This document shows, one piece after another, positions 1-17,444 of a stretch of DNA of 64,000 nucleotides (position 1 is its first letter; each line of letters opens with the position of its first letter). The position numbers and the translations under genes are program-made. The DNA lies in assembly GCA_947497065.1 (NCBI GenBank), contig CANMEQ010000002.1, positions 372,001 to 436,000 of the forward strand, in the 5' to 3' direction. This stretch comes from an uncultured Paracoccaceae bacterium (GTDB lineage: Bacteria > Pseudomonadota > Alphaproteobacteria > Rhodobacterales > Rhodobacteraceae). A model generated the notes under the pieces. That model saw only the letters and a program-made list of their open reading frames with translations, ran no database searches and had not been told where the DNA came from.

Positions 1-96
1 CTGCAGTTGCGGTGTGAGGTACCCAAAGTTTCTCAACCGGAACTGCCACAACGCTTGCGCCCAGGTCAGTTCGGATTACACAGGGTCGCATCGAGA

Positions 97-126
97 TTGC
101 GAGTTGTGCTGCGCTTCCTCTATACA
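97..126 (+). promoter_or_regulatory. Candidate promoter of the methyltransferase gene
   Basis: A TTGCGA (97-102) and a TATACA (121-126) are separated by 18 bases, matching four of six bases in each half of the sigma-70 consensus. The predicted start of transcription lies about 30 bases before the TTG codon at 161. The remaining sequence from 1 to 160 shows no gene that I can support. This is a pattern match only. Confidence 0.3.
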
Positions 127-160
127 CTTTATTAGAAGCCAAAAACGATTGAGCTAGGTA

Positions 161-1435
161 TTGAAAGTAGTTCCCGAAATAAACCGTAGACTCGCTGAGG
201 CGCGTAAAAGGCTTGGTTTGGACCATTACGTGATGGCGACGCTTTTGGGCCTGGGGCCCGAAGGGGCTGAAACTGTGAGGCTATGGGAGAACGGCGAAGG
301 GGGGAAGATTACCCCTACCAAGCAAAAGGCGATTGACGCGTTACCTGTCAAAATACCCTACAAGGACACCCGAGAGAAATCTGAGTTCAAGTTCATTGAC
401 CTTTTTGCTGGGATAGGAGGGATACGTCTCCCGTTCCAGGAAGCTGGCGGAAGGTGTGTCTTCACCGCCGAAATCGACAAGCATAGCAAGGTCACTTACG
501 CAGCTAACTTCGGGGAGGTGCCCGAAAAGGATGGTGACATCACCAAATTCACTTCCTCGGAAATCCCAAAGCACGATGTGCTTCTCGCTGGCTTTCCCTG
601 TCAGGCTTTTTCACAGGCGGGTAAAAAACAAGGCTTTTTTGACACTCGAGGCACGATGTTTTTCGAAATTCAACGAATTTTGGCTAAGCATCACCCGAAG
701 GCGTTTTTGCTAGAGAACGTCAAACAACTGAAGGGGCATGACAAACAGCGTACCCTAAAAACGATAATGGCGATCCTACGTGGCGAGGCTTCTGTCGAAA
801 TCCCGGATAACGTTCAATTGTCTGAAGAAGCTCGCGCAAGCCTAGGAACAAAACTCAAATACGATGTTGATTTCGAAGTCCTCCGTGCGCGGGATTTTGG
901 TGTGCCCCAGATCCGTGAGCGTATATACATCGTGGGTATCCGTCGCGACAAAGGCGCGCCGGCCAATCATGAGCGGATCAAGGAGATGTTCGGCAGGGTC
1001 ATTGAAAACTATCAGTTGAAAGTACTTCTAAAAGATATTCTCGTCGATGATCCCGAGCGCACTCAGGAATTCACTATATCGGATAACCTCTGGACTGGGC
1101 ACAAGGAGCGCAAAAAGCGGAACCGTGCGAATGGCAAGGGGTTCGGGTACAGCCTTTTTGACCGGACGTCCGAGTATTGCAGCACAATGAGTGCGCGATA
1201 TTATAAGGATGGTAGTGAAATTCTCATTGATCAGTCGGATTTGGGGCGAAATCCGCGTAAACTCCTTCCTGAAGAGGCACGCGCACTGCAGGGTTTCCCC
1301 GAAGAATTCTTGATCGATCGGGTCGGCAGATCTCAACTTTATAAGCAGTTCGGGAATTCTGTTGCAGTCCCTGTGATCCGGGCGGTAGCAAGCGAGATGC
1401 TTAGAGAGGCCAATATCCGGACAAGGAAAACCTGA
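161..1435 (+). CDS. DNA (cytosine-5-)-methyltransferase with N-terminal HTH-like domain
   Basis: This 424-residue enzyme is predicted to transfer a methyl group from S-adenosylmethionine to carbon 5 of cytosine in a specific DNA site. Residues about 5-60 resemble an XRE-type helix-turn-helix. Motif I (DLFAGIGG) lies near residue 83, the catalytic PCQ motif near 146, ENV near 185, and the GVPQIRERIYIVG motif VIII near 247-258. After a variable target-recognition stretch, the closing LQGFPEEF and KQFGNSVAVPV motifs lie near 385-405. All catalytic motifs are intact. The start is a TTG. It is followed, overlapping by one base, by a vsr-type gene, the classic dcm-vsr pairing. The target sequence cannot be read from the protein. 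Here it probably marks self DNA for the nuclease and ATPase genes encoded convergently downstream. The HTH may allow autoregulation (inference). Confidence 0.93.
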   Translation: MKVVPEINRRLAEARKRLGLDHYVMATLLGLGPEGAETVRLWENGEGGKITPTKQKAIDALPVKIPYKDTREKSEFKFIDLFAGIGGIRLPFQEAGGRCVFTAEIDKHSKVTYAANFGEVPEKDGDITKFTSSEIPKHDVLLAGFPCQAFSQAGKKQGFFDTRGTMFFEIQRILAKHHPKAFLLENVKQLKGHDKQRTLKTIMAILRGEASVEIPDNVQLSEEARASLGTKLKYDVDFEVLRARDFGVPQIRERIYIVGIRRDKGAPANHERIKEMFGRVIENYQLKVLLKDILVDDPERTQEFTISDNLWTGHKERKKRNRANGKGFGYSLFDRTSEYCSTMSARYYKDGSEILIDQSDLGRNPRKLLPEEARALQGFPEEFLIDRVGRSQLYKQFGNSVAVPVIRAVASEMLREANIRTRKT

Positions 1436-1896
1436 TGGTCGACATCGTGTCCTCTGATGTTCGTAGTCGAATGATGTCAGGCATTAAAGGCAAGGACACG
1501 AAGCCGGAAATCCTGATAAGACAATTGCTGCATCGCGCTGGCTACAGATTCAGGCTTCATCGGAAAGATCTTCCAGGTCGACCAGATATTGTCCTTTCAC
1601 GCTACAATACAGCGTTATTCGTGAATGGCTGTTTCTGGCATGGGCACGAGGATTGCCATCTTTTTCGCCTCCCGAAATCGCGCCAGGAGTTCTGGAAAGT
1701 GAAGATTTTCGGCAATCAGGCACGGGATCTCCGAAAACAGACAGAACTCTTTAAACTTGGCTGGCGGGTTGGCGTCGTTTGGGAGTGCACATTGAAAGGC
1801 AAAACGGTATTGGACCATGATAGCATTCTGAGACGCCTTGAAGGATTTATATGCGGAGATATTCCGTTTTACGAACTGCGTGGAAAGCAGCAGTAG
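1435..1896 (+). CDS. vsr: Very short patch repair (Vsr-type) endonuclease
   Basis: This 153-residue protein matches Vsr over its full length. It has an N-terminal helical part with MMSGIKGKDTKPE, a GRPDIVL segment carrying the metal-binding aspartate, the CFWHGHEDC cluster with catalytic histidines and zinc-type cysteines (about residues 63-71), and the WECTL segment near 120-125. Vsr nicks DNA 5' of T:G mismatches made when 5-methylcytosine deaminates, so it is normally paired with a C5 methyltransferase, as here. The ATG overlaps the methyltransferase stop by one base, showing co-translation. In operons with Z1 and GHKL proteins a Vsr-like nuclease could instead act as a restriction nuclease. 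Sequence alone does not separate these roles. Confidence 0.92.
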   Translation: MVDIVSSDVRSRMMSGIKGKDTKPEILIRQLLHRAGYRFRLHRKDLPGRPDIVLSRYNTALFVNGCFWHGHEDCHLFRLPKSRQEFWKVKIFGNQARDLRKQTELFKLGWRVGVVWECTLKGKTVLDHDSILRRLEGFICGDIPFYELRGKQQ

Positions 1897-1907
1897 AGGA
1901 GAAAGAC

Positions 1908-2309
1908 ATGGAGACGGTTTTCGAGGACATGCTGGCTGACAACGATCGAATTCTTGTGACCGTTCCGACAGAGGCCAAGGTTATTACCTTCAGTAACAGT
2001 GGAAGGGGCGGCAAAAGGAATTGGTTTGCCATGACAACAGATCAACTAAGAGGCTGCCTTGAAGACATGTTTGAGGGCTTGGACGCTTTTCCATCTGTTT
2101 ATGAGGAGAAGTTGTGGAGGGAGTTGTTCAAGATCCATCTGACCGAGGATGTCGCGCGAACCATGGGAGCCGTACAGACGCTGCCGCTATTCGAAGTTCT
2201 GGCGAAGGTGATCCACTATTCGAACGGCACGGGCCCCAGATCGTTCAAGACGATCAATCTGCAGCCGAATGCAGTGCGGCAGGCTATTGCTATGCTGGAA
2301 CGCAACTAG
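1908..2309 (+). CDS. Hypothetical protein linked to the dcm-vsr pair
   Basis: I do not recognise this family. The chosen ATG at 1908 is preceded by an AGGAG ribosome-binding site ending about 7 bases upstream and starts 11 bases after the vsr stop. The same frame is open from 1851, but that longer version would overlap vsr by 46 bases. The product is 133 residues, acidic at the N-terminus, mostly helical in appearance, with no signal peptide, membrane segment or recognisable catalytic motif. A basic glycine-rich turn (SGRGGKRNW) near residue 30 may contact nucleic acid (speculation). It is the last plus-strand gene of the methyltransferase unit and ends 3 bases before the stop of the oppositely oriented AIPR gene. 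Its position between modification and effector genes suggests a role in the same system. Confidence 0.75.
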   Translation: METVFEDMLADNDRILVTVPTEAKVITFSNSGRGGKRNWFAMTTDQLRGCLEDMFEGLDAFPSVYEEKLWRELFKIHLTEDVARTMGAVQTLPLFEVLAKVIHYSNGTGPRSFKTINLQPNAVRQAIAMLERN

Positions 2310-2312
2310 AGC

Positions 2313-4436
2313 CTATTCAGCCACCTCAAGAGCTGCGTGCGTGTAACCCAACCCCTTGAGTTTCTCCAAGCATCTCAGGGCCGTTTTTGCTTGGTGTGCG
2401 GACGGAATTTTCGAAGGTATCGCGGCGCAGATTGATAGGACCCTGTCATCCATAGGTGAAAGGGCCTTTTTGTCGGTTCCCCAGTTCCGAACGTCCTGCC
2501 AAAAATCGGCACCGACTTCGATTATCCAGCTTTCACCCATCAGATCCTTCGTCAAGTCGCTGTCCGCCCGCGCCTCCTGCGCGACCGAACGGACATCTTC
2601 AGGGTCCACGAGAGCGTCCAGAAATTCTTCAGGATACTCGAGCTCGCGCTGTTTAAGTGTTTTCCAGCAGGCCTCTTTCTTTGCCCATTCTCCGATGTGC
2701 CGCATGCCTGCGACAGGATTCAGGATGACATCCTGTGCCTCGGAGCACGCGATATCAAGCGCCGCTTCGAGATTGGTCAGATTGCGCTGCAGCCTCCAGA
2801 CTCGATCGAGATCGATCGCCTTGTTGATCTCGGTAACATCTGAAACCACTTTCGCAATGCCGTATGTGACAATGTTCGCGCGGTAACCGCCCTCGTACCA
2901 GGTTTCGGCGGCGGCGGAGACAAGCGTTTCGGTGGAGCGGAATACAATTGCCTTTGAAACCAGCCGCTTGTACCAGGTCTCGTCAAAGGAAACCCCGTCC
3001 TTGCCCCATCTCGTGCCAATGCTCTTGGCGAAGTTTGCAAAATTCTTCTGTGCTCCGAGGCTGACAACATGGGGCTCGCACCGGAACGAGTTTTCATATT
3101 TTGCGAGATCGGTTTTGGTGAAGAACCCTGAACGCGGGTAGGTTCCGTCAAACTTCTTCCGTTCGGCAGGAGTTTTGTTTCCTCGTGCATCCGCGTATTG
3201 TCCACGGGCGCGCTCATAGAACCACTTTGTATCCTGGAACCCGTTTTCCCCAGCTGGCGCATAGATTTTGCGAGAAAATTCTTCCATCCGGATATGGAAC
3301 GGGTGGTTTGAAAAGAAGTCGGCGGCATTCACCTTGTTCTGGGTGTTGGCGTATTCTGAGATTTTGGGGACAACGTCTTCAGATTGTTCCTTCGGAACGA
3401 TATTGAGTTTCATCTGGACATAGACGTTCTTTAGCTGCTCGGGCGCAGTTTTCATTGCGGCATGCAGTGAAGCCGTCGTCTGGCCCCCGTTCACTATCTG
3501 CAGGTTTTCGACGCTGGACAGGACAAGGCCTTCACCTGTCTTTGAAATGGTCACAGCATCGGCAGTCGCGGTAATCCCGTTGTTATAGGGTAAGAACATG
3601 TGTGGTTCCTTGGCGATCGTATCCCGGATGCCTCGGTTCACATTGCCACGCGCCTGAAGAAAAGAGCGCACGTTTGATTCCAAAAGGCGAGCACCCCATT
3701 TGTTATAAATGCCAGCTAGCTGATTGCCGTTTATCACAGCCAAATAACTTTCCAGTGCGGCGTCTCCACCGAAAGCCTTGAGTATTGGGATACTGCCACC
3801 AAAGTCCTCTTCGAGGTCAATTACCAAGTCCTCGCGGGCTTGGCCCTGTTCCACATATTTTTGAAGCCGCTTTAGGTCCCAGACGTTATAGGTCACGCTT
3901 TTGCCGTCCACCTGTCCTGCGGAATAGGAATCAACTCTTGTGGAGGTGGATGCAGTCGTGGCGATTATCAGTTTAATGCTTTCCAGTTGTGACCATTTGC
4001 GCGCAACAAGATCACATAGGATTGCACCGTCACTCGTTTCCTCGATCGCATCCCGGAACTCTTCGCTTCTCGCTGCGCGCAGGAATTCTACTAGCTTTCC
4101 GAACAGAATTTTGATTTCGGGTGAGCTCATAGCGCGAACCGTTTCACTGTATCGGAAATCCGTCAGTATAAGGCTCAGGGTGCTGTCTTCGTTATCGGTC
4201 CCGATACTGTAGCCGGTAACGGCTATCGGTTTGGTTAGCGTTCGTGCATCTTCTTTGCGGCGGCGCCTCCATTCTCCCTCGTGCCTGCTCCAAGATGGCG
4301 TGTCGATTTCACCAGCCTCGTTCAGCATGTCTCCAATCAGCTCGAAAAAGCTCTCCTCCTGAAGTGCCCCTTCCGATGTAGCGGTTCCCATAATGTCGTT
4401 CTGAAACTGTTGGTGAAATTCCTCAAGTCCATCCAT
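2313..4436 (-). CDS. AIPR-family (abortive-infection phage-resistance) protein
   Basis: This 707-residue protein belongs to the AIPR family (PF10592), judged from the FLPYNNGIT signature near residues 280-288 and IVNGGQTTASLH near 311-322, with the following KISEYANTQNKV segment. Members were first noticed in phage-resistance loci and occur next to restriction-modification genes. The biochemical activity is not settled from sequence. It is the last gene of a four-gene minus-strand operon and begins one base after the stop of the PD-(D/E)XK gene, in a G-rich stretch that can act as ribosome-binding site. It has no membrane segments. Its stop codon faces that of the small unknown gene across 3 bases, so transcription of the two arms must terminate inside each other's genes or run antisense. 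Confidence 0.88.
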   Translation of the reverse strand: MDGLEEFHQQFQNDIMGTATSEGALQEESFFELIGDMLNEAGEIDTPSWSRHEGEWRRRRKEDARTLTKPIAVTGYSIGTDNEDSTLSLILTDFRYSETVRAMSSPEIKILFGKLVEFLRAARSEEFRDAIEETSDGAILCDLVARKWSQLESIKLIIATTASTSTRVDSYSAGQVDGKSVTYNVWDLKRLQKYVEQGQAREDLVIDLEEDFGGSIPILKAFGGDAALESYLAVINGNQLAGIYNKWGARLLESNVRSFLQARGNVNRGIRDTIAKEPHMFLPYNNGITATADAVTISKTGEGLVLSSVENLQIVNGGQTTASLHAAMKTAPEQLKNVYVQMKLNIVPKEQSEDVVPKISEYANTQNKVNAADFFSNHPFHIRMEEFSRKIYAPAGENGFQDTKWFYERARGQYADARGNKTPAERKKFDGTYPRSGFFTKTDLAKYENSFRCEPHVVSLGAQKNFANFAKSIGTRWGKDGVSFDETWYKRLVSKAIVFRSTETLVSAAAETWYEGGYRANIVTYGIAKVVSDVTEINKAIDLDRVWRLQRNLTNLEAALDIACSEAQDVILNPVAGMRHIGEWAKKEACWKTLKQRELEYPEEFLDALVDPEDVRSVAQEARADSDLTKDLMGESWIIEVGADFWQDVRNWGTDKKALSPMDDRVLSICAAIPSKIPSAHQAKTALRCLEKLKGLGYTHAALEVAE

Positions 4437-4437
4437 A

Positions 4438-5382
4438 TCAGGCCCCCCCAGCTAAAATTTCCGGTTCAAATTCTGTGACATAAGGTGCGCATTCGGCCAA
4501 GTCGATTGCGTAGGTGACGTTGTGGACGCCACTGTTGAGGGGGGGGGTGATGCGTGGGAAGGCGTCGGCAACTGTGAAGGTCTGGCAGGTTCCAACAATC
4601 CAGCGACGCTTCTCGTAATCGTGACCGCGCTCATACCCGACTGCTTCAAGGCGCTCCTCCAGAACACTGAGGCATTCGGGATAATCCTCGAACAGCGCGA
4701 CAGTATTTTCTACATGTCCGTGTAGATTGTCACCCTCCGGAATTACGGCGCTATCCACGTCATACACCCGAAGGAATAGCAGTCGTCCGGTTACATCGGA
4801 GAGCTGGTCCTCCGAGGAGATCCTGACATACGGCTTGGCTGCGCCTCGTCTCGCTTTCACCTCGATGCAGGCTGCGGGAAACTCGAAGTCCTTTGCAGCG
4901 CCTTCCGGTCCAGTCCAGCCCTCTATCGCGGTCTCGGGCGATACGTGAGTTGAAATTTCACGAAGGAACGCCAGTTCGCCAACTAGCCCTCGCTGTTCCT
5001 CTTTGCTGAGACCTTGAGAGGAGCCGCCTCTAAGCAGAAAATGCCATCGGCGCGTTCGCCTGATGACACGGTCAAGCGCTGCAGTTTGGTCTGGAGCACC
5101 TTCCGCAGCCTCGACAATATCGCGGCATAGGGTTTCAAAAATTTCGCGGTGCCCGTTGTCGAGTAGCGATATGACGAGAGCTTTGCCGTTGACTGTCCTG
5201 AACTGCACATTGATGTTTTTGAGCGCAGGAAGTTCTGACGCCGTCTCCGTTGCGGGCGCAAGGCTCATCAACAACGCCGGGGCCTTTTTCTCGATGGTTG
5301 CCCAGAAGAAGTCATGCTTCCCTTGGGCATCAACACGCCGCATATTGCCTTCAGAAAGGGCCTTCCAGGGATCATTGTTCAT
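4438..5382 (-). CDS. PD-(D/E)XK motif protein (DUF4420-like), predicted nuclease
   Basis: The 314-residue product is predicted to be a metal-dependent nuclease. The sequence KDFEFPAACIEVKARRG near residues 163-180 supplies the aspartate and the E-x-K of a PD-(D/E)XK active site. Upstream, SKEEQRGLVGELAFLREI (about 128-145) provides the helix with the conserved glutamate. The family is known from Z1/AIPR operons. I placed the start at 5382 (MNNDPWKAL), where GAGGAG lies just upstream and the ATG overlaps the end of the Z1 gene by 11 bases. The open frame continues upstream to 5508, but that part is only the complement of the Z1 reading frame. The tight overlap implies translational coupling to the Z1 protein. 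Confidence 0.85.
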   Translation of the reverse strand: MNNDPWKALSEGNMRRVDAQGKHDFFWATIEKKAPALLMSLAPATETASELPALKNINVQFRTVNGKALVISLLDNGHREIFETLCRDIVEAAEGAPDQTAALDRVIRRTRRWHFLLRGGSSQGLSKEEQRGLVGELAFLREISTHVSPETAIEGWTGPEGAAKDFEFPAACIEVKARRGAAKPYVRISSEDQLSDVTGRLLFLRVYDVDSAVIPEGDNLHGHVENTVALFEDYPECLSVLEERLEAVGYERGHDYEKRRWIVGTCQTFTVADAFPRITPPLNSGVHNVTYAIDLAECAPYVTEFEPEILAGGA

Positions 5383-8125
5383 TCTCGTTCTCCTCGTCCT
5401 CATCAATGTCAGGATCGCCAAAGAGCTCGCGCTGTTTTGTTGTGTTGATGATGTATTCGACCTTCTCGTCCGCGCTTGCGGATCTGGGAAAGCTGATGGC
5501 CCAGGCAATAACAGGTTTGTCAGGGTAGTCCTTGTGGTCTGCTATGTGTTTGTCCTCCGGCTCTTTGATCTCAACCATATAGAGCGCGATCAGCGGCCGT
5601 TTACGGACCTCGCGGTATATCTTTCCAGGATGGTTTGCCTTGGTATCTGCTGGAAGAGAACGTGCTTCGCGGTCAGCAGCTTCCGCTTTGAGCGCCAGCT
5701 GCTCCGGAATCCCCAATCTCTCAACGCCCCGAGAAGAAACGCGCATTTTTGAGCCGCCGATCGACATAAACCCACGCTCCAGATCGAACGCGCCGATTTT
5801 CCGTGTGATCGGGACAATAGGCCAGCCGAGCGAGGTGTCCACATCGCCCGTTTTCAATGTAGCAATATGAACATCCCATTCAGCGAGTTCATTATCCGCG
5901 CGTTTGCGGATATATTCCCTTAACGGATCGATCTGGGTTGTGATGCTCTCGTCCGCATTTACCCATGCAAGCAGGAAGTCGTCGATGAGCTCCACGGGAA
6001 CAGTCTTTAGCAGGTGCCCGCCTGTAACGGTTTCGGCTTTTTCAGGAGAATAACCTTCCTCTCGAAGCCGAGAGATGAATGCGCGTGCAGCGCTCCTGTT
6101 CTTTTGGAGATCCTCACCATTAGATACCAGTCTTGCGGTCTCCACAAAGCTCGAAGAAAGGCCAACTGCCACCGTCTTCTTTCCGGAGCCGAGCTTGTTC
6201 CGCGCTGTGACCATTAGTGCGGAAGGGTGACTTTTGACAGCTAAGCCGAACTGCTTCGGTGTCGCCTTCGCACTCTCCATGAGGCGCAGTTCTTGGTGCA
6301 ACTCCTCGGTGGCATCCGCGATGTGGGCGTACCAGGATACAGCTTCGCGGGGCATCCAGATGCGACACAAATCGTCATAGCCCATGCGGTAACCAAACCA
6401 GCGACCCATTTGCATGAGCGTATCATACATCATGGTGTTGCGGAGGAACCAGGTGATTGTCAGTCCTTCAAGTGTGAGGCCTCGGGAAAGCGAGAAGCCT
6501 CCAACAGCAATCACTGTGACGCCCTGCTTACCTGACGAGGGATAGTCGAGGTCGTTTCGTGCACTGTTGACTTCGACAACCTTCGCCGATGCGACTGCGT
6601 TGTAGAGTGCTGCACGTACCTCGGGCCAATCAAACTCACTCGCTGAGAACTCGTCGTCCCAAACTCTCTTGAGTTCGGCAATTTCAGGATCAAGATGAGC
6701 AGCTGCCCCCGTGGCTCCATTGACGCGCAACGCATTCTTAATATCGTCTAGAACTTCATGTAACCGAGTACGAAGAATACCCTGCATGCGGGTAAATCGG
6801 CTCGCATTGACGAGCATTGAGGCGTGCTTATCGGCTTGGCCTCGCAAGTTGCGGATTGTTCTGGCCACGAGAAACGCACGGAGTGCGTCGGTCAGGGATG
6901 ATGGCAGCTCATTGAGCTCGTGGTCGATCTTGTGCTTTAGGGGCAGGATGTCTTCGTTATCGTCGATGTACCGGATGAACTCCGGCTCGGAGTCATCATC
7001 GGGTATGCCCTTGATAAAGACACGCTTGCCGCCGAAGTAGTTCGACGGTGCGTCCAGCCCGATAATGAAATCACGAGGGAAGAGGTCTTCGCCCCACATA
7101 TCGTCTTCCTGATCGGGATCAATGAAAATATTTGCAAACGGGGTGGCGGTGTAGCCTACGTAGCAGCTTCGGTGGAACAGCCCGAGCAATTCGCGAATTT
7201 GCCCGTTAATCCTGGTAACTTCTTCTTTTCCATATTTCGTATTGATCGATGCGTTGTCTGCCTCATCGTCAATGAGAAGCATCGGCTGGCTGATCATCTC
7301 CTCATCGCCGTGCGAACTGTTCTCTTTCAGCCAGTCAATAAGGTTCCCTAAAGTACTGTAGTTCTTTTTGATCACAAGAACGACTGGTACCTTGTAAGAG
7401 TCAATCTGGCTCTTGTTGGTGGTCGCGACAGCTTTTTTGAAGTCGTCAATCGTCGTAGTCAGGCTGACAGGCACATTGCGGTCATCTATCAAACCTACGC
7501 CAACACGCCGATTGCTCTTACCCGCTTTCGACATCCTGCCTGTATCGCGCCCAATAAAGCCTTCATCAATCCGCTGCTGCGTCTGGTTCCGAAGGTTGTT
7601 GTGAATGCCAGCGATAACAATGATTAGTCTATAACCCGCATCTGCCGCCTTGCAGATCAGGCCTGTGTAATTTGCAGTTTTACCACTCTGCACATGGCCC
7701 ACAACCATACCTTTAGAGTCCCAAACCACGTTCTTTTTGGGATTGCCCATCCGACCTAGTGTTTTGTCGGTGATGTCATCGAGTTTGATGACTACATCTT
7801 TTGGCAAGCCGGTTCGGATCAGGTGCTTTCGGTAACGTCCCCAATAGAATGGATCGATGTTTTGTTTGGCATCGTCCAGCCAGGGTTCAAAATCATCGCT
7901 GGTCACAACCGCGCTGAGGCCCATGCTGATGCCGTTTCGTTCCTCGAACTCCCGCGCCAGAAATTCCTCCTGCTCGGACGACACCGCCTCGTACCCCAAT
8001 GCCGGCATGACCGAGTTCAACGTTGAAATCAGCTCGCGTAGTTCGTCGGCTGTTTTGTTGTCTGAACTGACAAGTGCTTGGGAAACTTGGGCATCCAGAA
8101 AATCGTAATTACTCACTTCGCTCAT
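5372..8125 (-). CDS. Z1 domain-containing ATPase/helicase-like protein
   Basis: The 917-residue protein carries a helicase-type P-loop NTPase core: Walker A GHVQSGKT near residues 141-150, an LLIDDEAD Walker B near 284-291, and the GYTATPF motif III-like segment near 323-330. The Z1 domain (PF10593) follows, with GGFSLSRGLTLEGL near 540-555 and QMGRWFGYR, with its arginine-finger-like residue, near 570-580. The C-terminal third has no motif I can name and ends in a highly acidic tail. All nucleotide-binding residues are present. It lies one base after the GHKL gene and overlaps the nuclease gene by 11 bases. It is presumably the DNA-translocating or remodelling motor of the complex (inference from family). 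Confidence 0.9.
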   Translation of the reverse strand: MSEVSNYDFLDAQVSQALVSSDNKTADELRELISTLNSVMPALGYEAVSSEQEEFLAREFEERNGISMGLSAVVTSDDFEPWLDDAKQNIDPFYWGRYRKHLIRTGLPKDVVIKLDDITDKTLGRMGNPKKNVVWDSKGMVVGHVQSGKTANYTGLICKAADAGYRLIIVIAGIHNNLRNQTQQRIDEGFIGRDTGRMSKAGKSNRRVGVGLIDDRNVPVSLTTTIDDFKKAVATTNKSQIDSYKVPVVLVIKKNYSTLGNLIDWLKENSSHGDEEMISQPMLLIDDEADNASINTKYGKEEVTRINGQIRELLGLFHRSCYVGYTATPFANIFIDPDQEDDMWGEDLFPRDFIIGLDAPSNYFGGKRVFIKGIPDDDSEPEFIRYIDDNEDILPLKHKIDHELNELPSSLTDALRAFLVARTIRNLRGQADKHASMLVNASRFTRMQGILRTRLHEVLDDIKNALRVNGATGAAAHLDPEIAELKRVWDDEFSASEFDWPEVRAALYNAVASAKVVEVNSARNDLDYPSSGKQGVTVIAVGGFSLSRGLTLEGLTITWFLRNTMMYDTLMQMGRWFGYRMGYDDLCRIWMPREAVSWYAHIADATEELHQELRLMESAKATPKQFGLAVKSHPSALMVTARNKLGSGKKTVAVGLSSSFVETARLVSNGEDLQKNRSAARAFISRLREEGYSPEKAETVTGGHLLKTVPVELIDDFLLAWVNADESITTQIDPLREYIRKRADNELAEWDVHIATLKTGDVDTSLGWPIVPITRKIGAFDLERGFMSIGGSKMRVSSRGVERLGIPEQLALKAEAADREARSLPADTKANHPGKIYREVRKRPLIALYMVEIKEPEDKHIADHKDYPDKPVIAWAISFPRSASADEKVEYIINTTKQRELFGDPDIDEDEENENEQ

Positions 8126-8126
8126 T

Positions 8127-9614
8127 CTAGGCGTTTTCCTCTAGGTATTTGTTTATCAGTTCCTGCGTCCGGTCCCAGTGGGATCGGAGTACAACGTTGT
8201 TTTTCAAAAGGTCAGGAATGACATCGGAGGGGACGCCGCCTTCAAGTAGGCTCGTGATCAAGGCCCCTACCTGTAGGCCAAGAGCTTCGTCATCGATATG
8301 ATCGCTCGCAACTTTCTCAGCTCCGCCGATCATATCGGCATGGATGGTCTCAACTGGGAGGGAAGATCCGATTAGGCGGATGCAGGCATCGAAATCACTC
8401 TTCAAATCACCTCCGATCCGGTCTCGAAAGTCCTGAAAAACAGGGTGTGAAAGGTCCGGCTTAAAAATGATCTTGTCATCTTGTAAAACTCTGTTCCAAA
8501 CCGGCAGCTGATCTTCTGCAACCAGTTTTCTCCCGCGGCGCGTGTAGGTCCGTTTTGACGTGGAAACAAAACGTTCTACGATGCTTTTGAGCTTGTTTCG
8601 TACTGTTGGCGGGAGTTGCGCCGACGCTTTTTTGACATCGATTTTCCATTCAGCATCCATGGAGTTGGGGATGTCTACGGCAATTCGACAGAGTTTGGTT
8701 GCCTCAGCCTGCCGAGCTAAGCCCAGCCAGCCGCCCGCAATAATCAAACGGTCGGCCCGATAGATATAAAGCCCTTGCGATCTTTGATGCCCTTCCATCC
8801 CGCCAATGTCGTCCCACTCCTGTTGGGACATCTTCTTATGGTGAGGGAGAGTAACACATTTGAAGCTAACGACGCCCTTTGACAGTTTCAGAAATTCTTC
8901 GGAATCCAATTGACGAGCAGGATGCCCTTCCGCGAAAGGGTCGATCGGGGCTAGTTTGGCGTGGTTGAGGTAGAGTGAAATTCGTGCAGGTGAGCCACTC
9001 AAGTAACGATGAAAAACTAGCCTGAGGTGACGTTCGGCACTGCTAAGAGCTGCGTTGAGCGTTTGGGTTCTTTTAGATCCATCGTTCTTATAACCGCCAT
9101 CGAGGCGATCAAGTTTTTTCCAGACTACAATTGTACCGGAGTCCCCGAGGTGTTGCGCCGAAGGCACTGTGCTTGGATCATCAAGGATGACCGCTGACCA
9201 CCGATTTGTTTCGCCAACTCGGTCCAAGTCCCAGGCCGCGGCTGTCGTTTCCCCATCCGTTCGGGTAAGGACTGTGAGTTGCCGGCATTGGGAAAAGCTC
9301 GCACTTTTCAGCCCAAGGCCAAAACGCCCCAGATCTTTTGCGTCGCGCTCATCCCGAGGATTTTTTGTGCCGGGCCTTAGTGCCTCAAGTAGCTCTGCTC
9401 TCGACATGCCGTGACCATCGTCAGCAATCGCTATCCAAGGATCATCTGAAACTGTATCAGCAAAGACATCAATTCGTTTGGCATTTGCAGTGATTGCGTT
9501 ATCTACAATATCTGCCAGAGACGTCTCGAGGCTATATCCAAAATCCCGAAGCCCTTCAATGAGGCTCGCGGGATGAGGCGGAAGCTCAACTTCCTGTGAC
9601 GCGAAGATGTCCAT
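8127..9614 (-). CDS. MORC/MutL-like GHKL ATP-binding protein
   Basis: This 495-residue protein has a complete GHKL ATPase domain in its first 150 residues: N-box SLADIVDNAI with catalytic-type glutamate/asparagine positions near residue 35, G1 box IADDGHGMS near 63-70, and G2 box GRFGLGLKSASFS near 96-108. This layout matches the bacterial MutL/MORC-related ATPases found in restriction-like operons with Z1 proteins rather than histidine kinases, because no dimerisation histidine domain or receiver is present. A basic middle region (KSIVERFVSTSKRTYTRRGR) may contact DNA. It is the first gene of the minus-strand operon. ATP-driven dimer closure could act as the sensor or clamp of the system (inference). 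Confidence 0.88.
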   Translation of the reverse strand: MDIFASQEVELPPHPASLIEGLRDFGYSLETSLADIVDNAITANAKRIDVFADTVSDDPWIAIADDGHGMSRAELLEALRPGTKNPRDERDAKDLGRFGLGLKSASFSQCRQLTVLTRTDGETTAAAWDLDRVGETNRWSAVILDDPSTVPSAQHLGDSGTIVVWKKLDRLDGGYKNDGSKRTQTLNAALSSAERHLRLVFHRYLSGSPARISLYLNHAKLAPIDPFAEGHPARQLDSEEFLKLSKGVVSFKCVTLPHHKKMSQQEWDDIGGMEGHQRSQGLYIYRADRLIIAGGWLGLARQAEATKLCRIAVDIPNSMDAEWKIDVKKASAQLPPTVRNKLKSIVERFVSTSKRTYTRRGRKLVAEDQLPVWNRVLQDDKIIFKPDLSHPVFQDFRDRIGGDLKSDFDACIRLIGSSLPVETIHADMIGGAEKVASDHIDDEALGLQVGALITSLLEGGVPSDVIPDLLKNNVVLRSHWDRTQELINKYLEENA

Positions 9615-10031
9615 GAAATGTGCCTATTAAATACCTAACGCAACTATAGGGTACGCCCTGAAGCTTGAACACATGCAAAAAGTGAGCGCAAAGCTATTTC
9701 TTTCAAAAAGAGATGTTCTTTGGGAACAGGTCACTTTGCATGCGCAGCAAATGGCGGGAATGCGGAATGCAAATGCAGCATGGCGTTTCGGTGACGAACG
9801 GCCAGTTTTTGGCCGTGAGTGTCGACGGAAACGATGTAAATCGAGCAAGATGCCGTGATGCGGAGAATGACTGCAATGAGCCTGAAATGGCCGCGTTCGT
9901 CGTAGGAGGATTTGCAGTTGCTGTATGGGCGCGCATGTCGTGACGGTAAACAGTTAGTCTAGACTATCGTGGATGTGCATTTAGAGTGTTGACCACTTCA
10001 ACTAACACCTGATCAATATAGGACCGCCGAG
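9615..10031 (+). other. Intergenic region between the GHKL operon and an orphan gene
   Basis: This 417-base stretch must contain the promoter of the minus-strand GHKL-Z1-nuclease-AIPR operon. I find no convincing sigma-70 pair; the best is a TTGCAT/TACCCT pair (minus strand, 9678-9648) with an over-long 19-base spacer. Small open frames at 9673-9858 and 9713-9943 on the plus strand overlap each other and have neither a good ribosome-binding site nor a recognisable product, so I do not call them genes. Confidence 0.5.
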
Positions 10032-10391
10032 ATGATTAAGATGAGAGATTTGAACACCGGCTTCACATATCGATCATCGTGGACGGGGTTCGCTAAAGGC
10101 CGAGGTCTTGATATCGACAATGCGCCGATGCTGCACAGCGCACGCATTGACAGAAACCTAATCTACGAAGACCCTTTTAAGGGCCCTCGACACAGTTTCT
10201 CAAAAAAGTATGAGCAGTTCATCAAGGCTCTTAAAACCAGTGAATATGCGATCGTCCGACATGGCGGAAAAGATGAAAATCAAAACCTGTTTGGGTCCGG
10301 AAAGCTGATTGCAATCTATGAGGTTGTTTCATACGAGGTTGACGAAACCGGAGGGGTTAAAATTCAGCTTGGCAATCGAGTTGCATTTTAG
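10032..10391 (+). CDS. Orphan hypothetical protein
   Basis: The predicted product has 119 residues (116 if the second ATG at 10041 is used). I do not recognise it. It is a soluble, basic protein without signal peptide, cysteine clusters or membrane segments. The first half contains GFTYRSSWTGFAKGRG and the second half looks like alternating beta strands (KLIAIYEVVSYEVDETGGVKIQLGNRVAF). The ribosome-binding site is weak (GGACCG). It is transcribed away from the defence operon and shares that operon's upstream region, so the two could be coregulated. It lies inside the A/T-rich island and is probably horizontally acquired. Confidence 0.6.
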   Translation: MIKMRDLNTGFTYRSSWTGFAKGRGLDIDNAPMLHSARIDRNLIYEDPFKGPRHSFSKKYEQFIKALKTSEYAIVRHGGKDENQNLFGSGKLIAIYEVVSYEVDETGGVKIQLGNRVAF

Positions 10392-10790
10392 AACGGTATT
10401 TACCGTGAACGGCCCAAACCGGACCTTGCACGGGTCTGTTGTTGCTGCAGTGCAGCTTACCCAAAGCTGTCGTTCGAGGTGTCGTGCCGCATATTGATTA
10501 ATCGGCTGAGCAATCTGCGTGAAGCCCAGCCCCCCTGATCCTGAACACTCAAATCAGTCGCGTTTTTGAGATTGGTCACACTCATCACTTTCACGAATAC
10601 ATAACGTAAACGGAACAATGCCTTGCCAGTTGACATATAAGCGCAATCACAGGTAGTAATATTGTGGCCTGCCGTGTAAGGAATTACGAACATAGCAGCG
10701 GTTTAAGGTGGCTCTGAGGGCCGAAAGCAAAACGCCTGATCCATAGTTGTACCGAAATTTTGTTTATGTTTCCGTGTTTGTGAATTTTAG
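10392..10790 (+). other. Gene-poor interval before the DUF285 pseudogene
   Basis: I see no supportable gene here. A minus-strand frame (10457-10693, 78 codons) lacks a ribosome-binding site and its translation looks non-protein-like. The part from 10392 to about 10520 gives me the impression of repeat-like, decayed sequence of the kind scattered in roseobacter genomes, but I cannot verify this without a search. Confidence 0.4.
10630..10659 (+). promoter_or_regulatory. Candidate sigma-70 promoter upstream of the DUF285 genes
   Basis: A perfect TTGACA (10630-10635) is followed after 18 bases by TAGTAA (10654-10659). It points toward the decayed DUF285-repeat copy that begins at 10791 and, further on, the intact gene at 11149. 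It may be the ancestral promoter of the broken copy. Pattern match only. Confidence 0.35.
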
Positions 10791-11012
10791 ATGGAAGATA
10801 TTTTTGTGTTAGTTTTGCCAAACGATTTCAGAAGTTATTTCAAAAACGGTTCAGACCCAGATGGAAACGCGATCTCTAATCTAACAGATGCAGATACTTC
10901 GAGGGTGAACAATATGTATCGCATGCTCGGATAGTCAGCTGTGTTTGATCAGGACATCGGTGTTTGGGACACCTCTTTGTTGGTACCCTCGACAACAATG
11001 AGGGCGATTTGA
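10791..11012 (+). pseudogene. Decayed N-terminal copy of a DUF285/BspA-repeat protein
   Basis: The frame starting with ATG at 10791 encodes 47 residues that include SDPDGNAISNLTDADTSRV, then a TAG at 10932. Reading on in the same frame gives SAVFDQDIGVWDTSLLVPS and TTMRAI before a second stop at 11010. Each piece lines up in order with the start of the intact protein at 11149 (GLDPDGNPLPDITDLDTSDV, then ETFNQAIGRWDTSNTTIMRA). This is therefore a duplicated or remnant copy inactivated by an in-frame stop and truncated after about one repeat. The 136 bases from 11013 to the intact start hold nothing I recognise. Confidence 0.75.
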
Positions 11013-11148
11013 CCTATAGAAGATAGCCCATTTTTGAAGGTAGAGATCAACTGATTTCCGCGTCTTTCGACATGATACACATGGAACAATCGGGCGAAAT
11101 GCCGTCCTAGGATGAAGCAAAACACAATTTTTAGAAAATGGATTCAAC

Positions 11149-14100
11149 ATGGTAACTTTGGCAGGTGATGCGAGCTTTGGATTTTATAACGGTCTTGACC
11201 CTGACGGAAACCCACTCCCGGATATCACAGACCTGGATACGTCAGACGTAACCGATATGAATGGTTTGTTTTTCTTCGCCGAGACGTTCAACCAAGCGAT
11301 CGGTAGATGGGACACGTCGAATACGACCATAATGCGAGCCGTGTTCTACGAAGCACATGCGTTCAACCAAGATATCAGTCAGTGGAACACGTCCAAAGTG
11401 ACCGATATGCGCGAGATGTTTCATAAGGCATATGCCTTCAATCAGGACATCGGGTCGTGGGACACAAGCGCCGTCACCAGAATGGACGAGATGTTCTTTG
11501 GCGCACAAACCTTCAACCGAGATATCAGCGGTTGGGACATGTCGCGCATCACGGACATGAGCGACATGTTTAGCGGGGCTGCTGCATTCAACCGAGATAT
11601 CAGCGATTGGACCATTGCGGACGGCGCAAATTTGTCAGGGCTATTCCGGGACGCTGATGCCTTTGATCAAGACTTGTCTGACTTGGACATCAGTGGCCTG
11701 AAGCTGATGTATAACATGTTTAACGGGTCGGGCATGTCCGTCGAGAATTATGACGCCACGCTAAACGGCTGGTACGAACAGTCCCTGTCGACAGGGGTGC
11801 AGAATTACGTCGCTTTGGGGGCGAGTGGCCTGCAATATTCAAGCGAAAGTGCGGCTGCGCGTCAGTGGCTGACGTTCAATCATGGCTGGACCTTTCAGGG
11901 CGATACGCTTTGGACAGAGGGAGAGAATAGAGCGCCGAATGCGATCATTGATAACATCGCCATAGACGCCGATATTGATCGCGTTGTTTTTAACGCGTTG
12001 AGCAATGACCGAGACCAAGATCGAGATACCCTTTCGCTGACGGCGATTGACGGTGATGACATTATCGAAACGGGAGTTGATCCCTACGGGCTGACATTTA
12101 ATACCGCTTCTGCCAATGGCGGAGCCATTTCCGGCAACAGCGATGGCACGCTTCATTATTTGCCGGCGCCGGACTTTGCCGGGGTTGATACATTTACCTA
12201 TACCGTAAGCGATGGAAACGGCGGAACGGATACTGCGACAGTGCGCATCACTGTTGGCGCCGATCCGGTTGCGCCTCCTCCCGAGCCTACGAATTCCGCT
12301 CCGGTTATAGCTGGTCTTTCTTTTGGCCAACGTTTGGATGCCAGCGCTTTTTCGATTAACTTGCGCGACTTCATTTCAGACCCAGACGGCGATGATTTTG
12401 ACATCTTTGTTGCACTTCCGTCCGAACTGGAAGGGATCGCGTTTGATGCCGAGACATCGGTTTTGTCGGGAACAATCGATGCTGGTTTTGATCCTTATAC
12501 TGCGGGCGAAGAACCTTCTTTGGCTTCGTTTGACATTGATATCCTTGCGATTGATACAAACGGTGCCGAAACCGAGGTGACGCGGTCGCTTGTGGTCCGG
12601 CAGGACACGTCCCCTCGCACGCCGACGGTGACGGTTGATGATATCCGGCTCGACGAAAATGGGGCGGAGCGCGGTGTGATTGTGCGCCTATCCAATCCTG
12701 TTGATTACGACATCACCCTGAATTGGCGGATCTCGGACGATAGCACCGCTTATCGTGGCTTCGACTTTGATGTGGCTGATGGTGTGTCGGACGTCTTCAT
12801 TCCCGCAGGGGGCGAAACCGGTCTGATCCGATTAACAGCCTTGGCCGATGATATCGCGGAAGGACTTGAATACATTGAGTTTGAGTTTTCGACACTTGAT
12901 GATGTTGTCGATAACGGTGGGCACATCGTTCCGATCTTGGATTCGGCGGCGACAGATTTGTCATCGGGCAACGGTCTGCTGGCGTTCATTGCATTCGCAT
13001 TCGGCCATGAATCCGTTGCTCAAGCTCGCGACTATTTTGCAGCACTGTATGACGAAGGGGTCAAATACACCGCTTCAATCGAAGCATTCGGCGGGGCCTC
13101 AGTGAGTGGGTCTGGTTTTGAAGCAGGTTATGGTTATTCGTTAGACGTTGCGGACCTTTTTGGTGTGACTGCCGAAGGCCTTGGCCAATATGACAGCAAC
13201 GAAAACGGGCGCGTTTCCGTATGGTCTCATAGCAGTCTGTCTCTAAGTACCGCTCTTGATCTGAATCTGGACTTTTTGAACAGCCGTGTCACAGGGGGAC
13301 TGGCTGTTGGCTTTACGCCTTTGAAGGTCTCATCGCTGAACGGTGACGATCTTGCGGACACTTCGGTGGGGTACAAGGTCGGTGCAGGATTGCTAGGTAC
13401 AAAAGCAACGATCGGGCAAACCTTGGGGACACAGAGCGGGGTAAGCCCTTATGATTTTGAAGTCAGCGCTGCGCAATCTGCGTTCGGGGTCTCGGTTCCG
13501 CTTGGAAACTTAACGGACGGATTTGGCGTTGATGGAGCGAAATTCACGTTTTCCCCACTGGATATTGCAAAGTTAAACCTCGCTTTTGCCGGGGTTTCAT
13601 TTGAAGTTGCGAACACCAGAAATCATATCGAAGCCGACCGCGACTTGGTAATCAACGGCGAATTTCTTGAGGTCTTATCCGAGTTTGGGCTGGTTTCTGC
13701 GGGTGAATTTTCCGCGTCTGATGGGATGTCAGGGAACACGGCTGCGAATGAAATAGTCGGCACCACCGGAAACGATGAAATTACAGGTGGCGGCGGCAAT
13801 GACAGCCTTTACGGTCGTAACGGGGATGATCTGTTGTATGCGGATGATCCTGATATCGCACGCAGTGTTGGGCTCTTTGGTGGCGAGGGAGACGACGTTA
13901 TGATCTCAGGCCGTGCCGAATATTGGGCGGCAGATGGCGGCGCGGACAATGATCAATACGTCATTGATTACACCCAACTTCAGGACGTCGCGGATGATCT
14001 GGGCCGCTCGCCGGAATTGCAAGTATATGACGAAAGCGGGGCTGACGATCGGATTGTCATCCTATCGGATCGCGCAATCGATATTGTCAACGATGTGACC

Positions 14101-14973
14101 TATGGTTTTGCTGATGACGGGACATTGACTGTAACGACCGCTAACAAGAAACTCTTTGGCAGCGACGATGAGTTTTCGTTCACCATTACCGATCAGACGT
14201 CGGCGCATGGACGTATTGAAAACATTTGGTTCGCTACAGCCAGTGACGATCTGAGTTCCTTTAATTTGTATGCGGGGCAGGATATTGCGAGCCTGACAGA
14301 GAGCCACCTCGAAGAGACTGCCATTACCGGGTCCGAACGCGGCGATGTGTTAACGGGAACAGACGCCAGCCAGATTTTGAATGGCGGAGTTGGTGGTGAC
14401 AGTATGGTCGGACTTGGTGGTGACGATACGTTTATCTTTGAGAATAGCAAAGACCGTGCCGAAGAAGCCGTTGGCGAAGGTTTTGACACGATTATTGCCA
14501 CTTCCGAAGTAACGTTGGGCAGCTCTGAAATTGAGCGGGTTAATCTAGAAGGCACAGGCAATCATCGGGTAAATGGTAACCAATTCGCGACTGAGATCAA
14601 CGGAAACGCCGGTAGCAATATTTTGATCGGTGGCGGCGGCGGCGATGTGATCACCGGCGGCGACGGAACAGATTACTTCGCATTCCTTGTGAATGACGCC
14701 GAAGGCGCAACTCAGATTACAGATTTCGGCGGTAACGACCAAGTTGCACTTGACGACCGTTTCTTCAACTTAGGTGACAGCAGCATCAATGTGCGGCAGG
14801 TCAGTCAGGTACAAATAGAAAATGCACTTAGAACCGAAACCGCGATTTACAACGCAAGCAGCGGCGAGATGTTTATCGATGTCGACGGTCGTCGCGGCCC
14901 AGAAGAAGCCCAATTAATTGCGGTTATCGAAGGTGGCGGCAAGCTTGGAGTAGATGATCTTATCCTATTTTAG
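11149..14973 (+). CDS. Large DUF285 (BspA-like) repeat protein with RTX calcium-binding C-terminus
   Basis: This 1274-residue protein is a mosaic adhesin-like surface or secreted protein. Residues about 25-210 hold five to six DUF285 repeats with the pattern FNQDIxxWDTSxVTDMxxMF. Residues about 260-370 form a cadherin/VCBS-type domain ending in GVDTFTYTVSDGNGGTDTATV, followed by a putative-Ig-like part and a Calx-beta-like domain (about 485-580). A unique region of about 250 residues comes next, then RTX nonapeptides GGGGNDSLYGRNGDD near 870-890 and GGGGGDVITGGDGTD near 1160-1175. There is no N-terminal signal peptide. RTX proteins of this type are exported by type I systems using a C-terminal signal, and no exporter genes are in the window. 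The start follows a decayed copy of its own 5' end. Confidence 0.85.
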   Translation: MVTLAGDASFGFYNGLDPDGNPLPDITDLDTSDVTDMNGLFFFAETFNQAIGRWDTSNTTIMRAVFYEAHAFNQDISQWNTSKVTDMREMFHKAYAFNQDIGSWDTSAVTRMDEMFFGAQTFNRDISGWDMSRITDMSDMFSGAAAFNRDISDWTIADGANLSGLFRDADAFDQDLSDLDISGLKLMYNMFNGSGMSVENYDATLNGWYEQSLSTGVQNYVALGASGLQYSSESAAARQWLTFNHGWTFQGDTLWTEGENRAPNAIIDNIAIDADIDRVVFNALSNDRDQDRDTLSLTAIDGDDIIETGVDPYGLTFNTASANGGAISGNSDGTLHYLPAPDFAGVDTFTYTVSDGNGGTDTATVRITVGADPVAPPPEPTNSAPVIAGLSFGQRLDASAFSINLRDFISDPDGDDFDIFVALPSELEGIAFDAETSVLSGTIDAGFDPYTAGEEPSLASFDIDILAIDTNGAETEVTRSLVVRQDTSPRTPTVTVDDIRLDENGAERGVIVRLSNPVDYDITLNWRISDDSTAYRGFDFDVADGVSDVFIPAGGETGLIRLTALADDIAEGLEYIEFEFSTLDDVVDNGGHIVPILDSAATDLSSGNGLLAFIAFAFGHESVAQARDYFAALYDEGVKYTASIEAFGGASVSGSGFEAGYGYSLDVADLFGVTAEGLGQYDSNENGRVSVWSHSSLSLSTALDLNLDFLNSRVTGGLAVGFTPLKVSSLNGDDLADTSVGYKVGAGLLGTKATIGQTLGTQSGVSPYDFEVSAAQSAFGVSVPLGNLTDGFGVDGAKFTFSPLDIAKLNLAFAGVSFEVANTRNHIEADRDLVINGEFLEVLSEFGLVSAGEFSASDGMSGNTAANEIVGTTGNDEITGGGGNDSLYGRNGDDLLYADDPDIARSVGLFGGEGDDVMISGRAEYWAADGGADNDQYVIDYTQLQDVADDLGRSPELQVYDESGADDRIVILSDRAIDIVNDVTYGFADDGTLTVTTANKKLFGSDDEFSFTITDQTSAHGRIENIWFATASDDLSSFNLYAGQDIASLTESHLEETAITGSERGDVLTGTDASQILNGGVGGDSMVGLGGDDTFIFENSKDRAEEAVGEGFDTIIATSEVTLGSSEIERVNLEGTGNHRVNGNQFATEINGNAGSNILIGGGGGDVITGGDGTDYFAFLVNDAEGATQITDFGGNDQVALDDRFFNLGDSSINVRQVSQVQIENALRTETAIYNASSGEMFIDVDGRRGPEEAQLIAVIEGGGKLGVDDLILF

Positions 14974-15844: not shown

Positions 15845-17032
15845 TTACCCTCTCAGCTTAGTCACTGTGGCAACATTTGTGCCGGTCACATGATCGGCCC
15901 ACGCCTCCATGACAGTTCGGCGTCTTTCCAGAAGGTCAGATCTTGCGTAGGAACGTTCAACCTTATTTCCGATTTTATGTCCCAGCACGGTTTCAGACAC
16001 CTCCCATGAGCAGGCGTCGACGTCTTGAACCCACGTCCGAAAACTGGATCTGAACCCATGCGGCCGACCTTTCTCTTTGAGCTTATCCAAGCAGACCTCT
16101 AGGGCGCGGTCAGTGATGGCCCCGCCGCGCAACCCCGCAAACAAAGTGCCGTCGTGAAACCGCGCCTGATCCGCAATGAGCGCCATCGCAGCGCGGGAAA
16201 GCGGGACACGAAAGTCTGTGACCTTCCCTTCAACACCTTTCACGCGGTCAGCCGGCACGGTCCAGACTGCCTCGTCTTCGTCGACCTCGTCTAAGGTGAT
16301 GCCCGTACACCCATCAAGACGCACAAGCGTCAGGATCATGAAGCGCAGACATTGGCCCGCGTTGGTTTCTGGCAACCGTTCGTAGAGGGCAGGGATTTCT
16401 GCCCAAGGGGTCGAGGGCGTCGGCGTCACGACGTGGTTTACATGCCCCAGCATCCGGACAGCCTGATCAACGATAATCGGGTTCACGTCGTATCCCATCA
16501 GCTGGGCTTCGCGAAGAACAAGCCTGGCCCGTTGGAATGCCTTTTCGGCTGTTGGGTGTTTTGTGTGCCAGATCGGTTTGAGCGCATCGCGGAAGTCATG
16601 GGCCGCCAGTGTCGAGATACGTTTAGAGCCGATGGCGGGCCATAAGTGGACAGTGAAGGGGGAAAGCCAGCGGCCCCGCGTTCCCTCGCCGCGCAGGCGT
16701 GCCTTGATACTCTCAAGGACGGTTTCGGTCATTTCTTGGAATGTGGGGTCCAGCTTGTCGCGCTCGGCTTTGATGGCCTCCTGCTCGGTCTTGCGCACAT
16801 CGACGGGGTCGTTCCCCTCATTGATCACGTTGCGCCACTTGTCGCGGATTTGGCGGGCTTGGCTGAGACTGATGGCCGGATAGGAGCCGAGCCCCATATC
16901 GCGGCGCTTGCCCATGAACTGATACCGGAACGTCCAGCGCCCACCTTTTGCCGTCCGGTCCAGAAACAGGCCATCCCCGTCCTGCATCCGTCCAGCGGGC
17001 GCGTTTTTGATTGCTATGGCTGTTAGCTTCCC
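15845..17032 (-). CDS. P4-type tyrosine recombinase (island integrase)
   Basis: This integrase catalyses site-specific recombination between an island end and a chromosomal attachment site. The N-terminal DUF4102 domain begins MGKLTAIAIKNAPAGRMQDGDGLFL, typical of P4-family integrases. The catalytic residues appear in order: arginine in TLVRLDGCTGI, lysine in DRVKGVEGK, HGFR (H-x-x-R), LGHKIGN histidine, and the nucleophilic tyrosine in ERSYARSDLLERRR near the C-terminus. I chose the ATG at 17032, preceded by GTAGGA and matching the family start; the frame is open to an ATG at 17062, giving 395 or 405 residues. The gene lies at the border between A/T-rich island DNA and G+C-rich backbone, so it probably mobilised the whole left part of the window. 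No tRNA gene flanks it. Confidence 0.92.
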   Translation of the reverse strand, partial: GKLTAIAIKNAPAGRMQDGDGLFLDRTAKGGRWTFRYQFMGKRRDMGLGSYPAISLSQARQIRDKWRNVINEGNDPVDVRKTEQEAIKAERDKLDPTFQEMTETVLESIKARLRGEGTRGRWLSPFTVHLWPAIGSKRISTLAAHDFRDALKPIWHTKHPTAEKAFQRARLVLREAQLMGYDVNPIIVDQAVRMLGHVNHVVTPTPSTPWAEIPALYERLPETNAGQCLRFMILTLVRLDGCTGITLDEVDEDEAVWTVPADRVKGVEGKVTDFRVPLSRAAMALIADQARFHDGTLFAGLRGGAITDRALEVCLDKLKEKGRPHGFRSSFRTWVQDVDACSWEVSETVLGHKIGNKVERSYARSDLLERRRTVMEAWADHVTGTNVATVTKLRG

Positions 17033-17040
17033 CATGATCC

Positions 17041-17062
17041 TACCCCACACTTTACCCCACAC
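17041..17062 (+). repeat. Tandem 10-base direct repeat beside the integrase start
   Basis: TACCCCACAC occurs at 17041-17050 and again at 17053-17062, separated by TT. The position, directly upstream of the integrase start at the island edge, is where arm-type integrase or excisionase binding sites, or the attachment core, usually lie. The function is inferred from location only. Confidence 0.4.
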
Positions 17063-17444
17063 TATGGGCGTCGGTGCTGGTCATTCTGGATCGGCGCCCC
17101 TCGGCGTCAATCTCTATATGTGATTGTGATCTTTGGGGGTTTTGTCGGCTTCGGTCAAGCTGTGTCGGTGTCGTTACGGTGCTTCTCGACCGCACCAGTC
17201 TCTTCGATAAAGAGACATACTCTCTGAGAATGAGAGACCAAATCACAGTTATATATAAGATGTTCGGTGGCGCGTTTGTTTGTGGGCGTTGTCTGGGGTC
17301 TTGCGTGTGGTTAGCCCTTTTGATTCCCCAGTGGCATTCTCTTGGGATATTCCGCCGTGACATTCGGACGGGTTTGAGGCTTTAAGCGGGGCGAGAGCTG
17401 ACCCTTGGGGATGTGACCCCGGATTTAGAAAGCGCTGTGACCTG
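17063..17444 (+). other. Island-backbone junction with inverted repeats
   Basis: No gene is seen in this interval. It holds a perfect 7-base inverted repeat, GTCTCTT (17198-17204) and AAGAGAC (17210-17216), followed by CTCTC (17220-17224) and GAGAG (17232-17236). These overlapping arms could be protein-binding sites or attachment-site DNA. A TTATATATAA stretch near 17250 could belong to a promoter for trmL. Composition changes from island to backbone style across this interval. Confidence 0.45.

Follow-up and report, generated by a model that had tools for sequence, protein, structure and literature searches.

A rare version of the MZA-type defence cassette, with an apparently exchanged DNA methyltransferase and an additional small protein, in an uncultured Paracoccaceae bacterium

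Gene content and integrity of the cassette

The stretch of DNA considered here (the window, 64,000 nucleotides from an uncultured Paracoccaceae bacterium, genome G000) carries at positions 161..9614 a cassette of seven genes in two facing groups: a methyltransferase gene (dcm), vsr and the gene of a small protein (P0002, 133 amino acids, aa) on the plus strand, and genes of AIPR, DUF4420, MzaC-like and GHKL proteins on the minus strand, with the small-protein stop codon lying 3 base pairs (bp) from that of the AIPR gene. Judged by homology, this is a known kind of bacterial defence gene cluster (MZA-type), present and intact. A preliminary description had proposed a composite seven-gene cassette with intact key motifs, and both points are upheld: Pfam families were found for the Dcm, Vsr, AIPR, DUF4420, PF10593 and GHKL proteins, and all seven genes are open in the window as well as in two sister cassettes (locus L132 in genome G592 and L165 in G1166), the residues E136, D165, E174 and K176 of the DUF4420 protein being kept. 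The interpretation put forward in that description finds partial support. The window cassette appears to be a rare version of its kind, in which the DNA-marking enzyme has apparently been exchanged and the small protein gained, a feature that suits it to studies of target choice in such machines.

Core proteins

The four minus-strand genes, referred to below as the core, encode a MORC/MutL-like, MzaB-like GHKL ATPase of 495 aa (8127..9614; HATPase_c_3, E = 1e-31; PADLOC MzaB, 1e-85), which matches solved MORC2 ATPase chains at 6e-6; an MzaC-like protein with PF10593 (5372..8125; PF10593, 3e-78; PADLOC MzaC, 6e-145); an MzaD-like PD-(D/E)XK nuclease of the DUF4420 family (4438..5382; 314 aa; PF14390, 3e-69), whose four residues named above are each retained in at least 85% of 78 alignment rows; and an MzaE-like AIPR family protein (2313..4436; PF10592/PF22879; PADLOC MzaE, 4e-83).

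An AlphaFold2 model of the AIPR protein (predicted local distance difference test, pLDDT, 89.4) suggests a PD-(D/E)XK-like N-terminal domain, a ParB-like middle domain and a helical C-terminal part. Foldseek returned 0 matches to this model at E <= 0.001, and the domain reading comes from a second structural aligner with scores of 4-9, which are middling by that aligner's own note, and from most of the chains it listed being PD-(D/E)XK nucleases; further ParB-like or HEPN chains may have ranked too low to be listed. The ParB-like part is also backed by a retained ENxxR / NGGQT pattern in our own reading of the sequence. AIPR has been stated to have an N-terminal HEPN domain (PMC3506569); the model tentatively suggests PD-(D/E)XK-like and ParB-like folds in its place.

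Methyltransferase, Vsr and their variation around the core

The C5-cytosine methyltransferase (161..1435, plus strand, TTG start; PF00145, 9e-88) is of the Escherichia coli Dcm kind with an N-terminal helix-turn-helix (HTH)-like stretch, its identity being 38% to E. coli Dcm versus about 26% to the Dcm type that normally accompanies the MZA core. It retains SARYYKDGSEILI within the region that holds target recognition; against NCBIfam PRK10458 it reaches 224.2 bits (cut-off 710), and a CCWGG-like target site is predicted. The adjoining Vsr mismatch nicking endonuclease (1435..1896, plus strand; PF03852, 2e-27; TIGR00632, 139 bits, cut-off 97.85) has a homologue in Vsr of E. coli (127 bits). 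Upstream of dcm lies a conserved leader (52..160, plus strand), alignable with L165 from position 52 and with L132 from position 138, which may contain a promoter or operator, the latter possibly bound by the HTH-like N-terminal stretch of Dcm; HTH_3 gives a weak Pfam match in the Dcm homologues of loci L133 (genome G512) and L060, and none in the window Dcm itself. While this leader is conserved across genera, the sequence upstream of the window GHKL gene has no alignable counterpart in either sister cassette. At a further locus, L166 (6077-10070), a Dcm 85% identical to that of the window and a short Vsr (117 aa) are followed by IS21-like genes (identified by eye); this Dcm/Vsr pair is apparently a damaged remnant.

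Dcm and Vsr occur around the MZA core in many different arrangements and with changes of type. No constant extra gene was found near MZA cassettes when 2118 neighbouring open reading frames (ORFs) of at least 75 aa were clustered. The families so obtained were small, none extending to more than 8 of 100 loci, and some of them look recombinase- or transposase-like by eye. At L060 (9806-11065), an EcoRII-C type nuclease joins the core, Vsr and an E. coli-like Dcm in a single block, an arrangement in which a common mark may serve two restriction effectors.

The small protein

The small protein (1908..2309, plus strand) has its homologue in residues 134-255 of an R1 subunit of the LlaJI type, an McrB-like AAA+ protein (44% identity over 122 aa, 1e-30). 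Among 292 genomes of the order, its clear relatives beyond the own genome were confined to G592 (92% identity) and G512 (46%). In G592 (L132) it accompanies the same seven genes as in the window, and a third seven-gene cassette was reached in G1166 (L165) via its Dcm; the three blocks are alignable from end to end at 85-89%. All 80 relatives compared are without the small protein. In G512 (L133) the relative forms residues 134-255 of a 587-aa AAA_5 protein; an RE_LlaJI protein comes after it and a Dcm with 60% identity to that of the window before it, a gene set that by its content is a LlaJI-type system. The same locus (1-11745) also contains DISARM-type DrmA (cut by the end of the stretch) and DrmB, a transposase-like gene (by eye), the Dcm and the LlaJI pair.

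The preliminary description had called this protein unknown, which holds insofar as Pfam, NCBIfam, PADLOC, PHROGs and PDB gave nothing significant, and fails insofar as part of the R1 subunit in G512 is its homologue. Searches of phages and of IMG/VR gave no match, and both the single query against 385 genomes of the class and a three-row profile against 398 genomes of the phylum recovered the own genome only. A translated search of plasmids returned three records, all from Salinivibrio (E = 1e-3, 2 and 2); the strongest sits in an SgrR/hypothetical gene pair and is taken as chance. Of the weak order-wide matches, those at L127, L128 and L131 (E = 0.008, 0.02 and 0.048) were set aside, their ORF lists being judged unrelated by eye.

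Could the small protein be a functionless left-over of a LlaJI R1 gene carried in with Dcm? It covers only some 122 aa of the 587-aa R1, without the AAA+ domain and R2, and is rare, with no copy in the 80 relatives. Nevertheless, three intact 133-aa copies persist in three genera, with no stops, differences mostly at third positions and ratios of nonsynonymous to synonymous substitution (dN/dS) of 0.10, 0.16 and 0.18 over the three pairs (0.05-0.31 for the other cassette genes), and we regard a left-over as very unlikely. A second possibility is that it acts as a regulator, a timing or inhibitor protein restraining the core for as long as genome marking by Dcm is incomplete. Restriction-modification systems often include control proteins, and the gene shares its strand with dcm and vsr, 11 bp past vsr and apart from the core, end to end with the AIPR gene; but the family libraries yielded no HTH or regulator match, and the one outside relative detected belongs to a restriction subunit. 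This role seems quite unlikely.

Proposed mechanism

We favour, with a probability of roughly 0.55, a methylation-guarded, ATP-driven restriction machine in which the core is a general engine and specificity lies on the marking side. Dcm would mark the cell's own DNA and the mark would protect it from the core; the ATP-dependent core would restrict DNA without the mark; and the marking module would have been exchanged jointly with a possible target-recognition adaptor, the small protein. LlaJI R1 has been assigned as the sole specificity subunit, with its N-terminal half as its unique part (PMC1459862, in the sections covered), and the N-terminal domains of McrB relatives are described as divergent DNA readers (PMC7680126, likewise in the sections covered), and we infer from these two accounts that the small protein may be a recognition or docking domain. 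The adaptor is nevertheless the weakest link of the mechanism and is doubtful. Weighing against it are a single-sequence structure prediction with no usable fold (pLDDT 45, predicted template modelling score 0.33), the loci L060 and L064, which combine the core with an E. coli-like Dcm without the small protein in the sequence covered, and a Salinivibrio R1 that lacks the small-protein domain. Going further, it is conceivable, if unlikely, that the core's target specificity was changed in nature by exchange of the whole marking module, Dcm having arrived with a stand-alone DNA-recognition adaptor from an unrelated GTP-driven (LlaJI/McrBC-type) enzyme. If this were true, the MZA core would be a target-agnostic engine that a 133-aa plug-in protein can redirect to another site.

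The main rival holds that the core senses phage or acts by abortive infection and is blind to methylation, with Dcm-Vsr as a separate linked module (one that shields against other restriction systems, for instance, or serves maintenance). It draws on the fact that the five NCBIfam MZA parts contain no methyltransferase, on the variable arrangement and type of Dcm/Vsr described above and on the name of AIPR, which comes from abortive infection; we consider it rather unlikely. Target recognition could also reside within the core, most likely in AIPR or DUF4420, changing with each methyltransferase exchange. Such a location seems rather improbable: GHKL follows the same trend (p=0.020, uncorrected for relatedness or number of tests), the diverged AIPR region is C-terminal in L060 but N-terminal in the window, and within usual-Dcm pairs the partial correlation with Dcm is -0.075 for AIPR and highest, at 0.197, for DUF4420 (equally uncorrected). 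A core region tracking Dcm type is suggestive in two exchanged loci and inconsistent over all pairs or regions, and is not claimed.

Setting in an integrative element

The cassette likely belongs to an integrative element of about 18.8 kilobases (kb), which starts upstream of the window and runs from tRNA-Leu(gag) (G000:C2:370299-370385, window position 1 being C2:372001) to a 16-bp exact copy of the tRNA 3' end (17182..17197), the likely attachment site at its far end. A tyrosine integrase (15845..17062, minus strand; Arm-DNA-bind_3, 3e-19; Phage_int_M, 2e-8) is encoded by this probable carrier, adjacent to the 16-bp copy, and a 22-bp repeat (window 17041-17062) is found near both ends. In L132 an integrase gene stands beside tRNA-Cys. 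The tRNA-Leu flank is present in three congeners, none of which gave a small-protein match; a clean empty site was not found in them, the distance from tRNA-Leu end to right flank in G441 being about 5 kb versus about 1.1 kb expected. The GHKL start codon was rejected as a sharp border of a mobile unit: of the 40 bases upstream, 60% are still common to L132 and L165. Another gene of this element (11149-14973) encodes a protein of 1274 aa in which DUF285, Ig/cadherin-like and RTX calcium-binding domains are combined; it may be secreted and act at the cell surface.

Comparison with known systems

The closest known system is MZA (MzaABCDE; NCBIfam NF041931-NF041935, PADLOC mza), with homologues of MzaB, MzaC, MzaD and MzaE in matching gene order. 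In contrast to it, all four core proteins score far below the equivalog cut-offs of NF041932-NF041935 (324.6/850, 558.9/1500, 100.9/420 and 366.4/1050 bits), and Dcm, Vsr and the small protein are added. For the sigma-factor-like MzaA (NF041931, cut-off 800 bits), none of the three cassette genomes had a match above cut-off, the best (422-433 bits) lying on other contigs than the cassettes; this model also matches below cut-off in 10 of 14 control genomes.

As in a putative 'type II' defence system proposed in 2022 (PMC9523054), AIPR is present together with a MORC-related protein, here the GHKL ATPase with its MORC2 matches; DNA-repair endonucleases are tied there to type I, and the section on these systems mentions neither a small protein nor methyltransferase exchange. 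The MORC/paraMORC operons of Iyer, Abhiman and Aravind (2008, PMC2292703), to which the preliminary description had pointed, share with the window a superfamily II helicase with DThhQXuRhFG (here DTLMQMGRWFG), a restriction endonuclease-fold protein with E-D-ExK, a GHKL ATPase, a cytosine methylase, Vsr and AIPR, and both motifs are indeed present in the window proteins; that work is a prediction covering several operon kinds, and its sections covered here do not mention the small protein. CglI and NgoAVII, as described in the covered part of PMC4267653, differ in having three genes and a nuclease that is a PLD-B3 fusion cutting next to GCCGC; none of the seven window proteins matched a PLD or B3 Pfam domain at E up to 0.1. 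The likeness to LlaJI (PMC1459862, in part) lies in the small protein, which has its homologue in the N-terminal half of an R1-like subunit that occurs next to a 60%-identical Dcm, whereas AAA+ R1 (AAA_5) and R2 (RE_LlaJI) have no Pfam match among the seven proteins. With E. coli Dcm-Vsr, finally, the window pair shares the retained SARYYKDGxEILI segment and the overlap of vsr with dcm; the window Dcm differs in an extra insert of about 25 aa, shared with L133 and Salinivibrio, and in the absence of a loop of E. coli Dcm, and the pair is linked to a restriction core.
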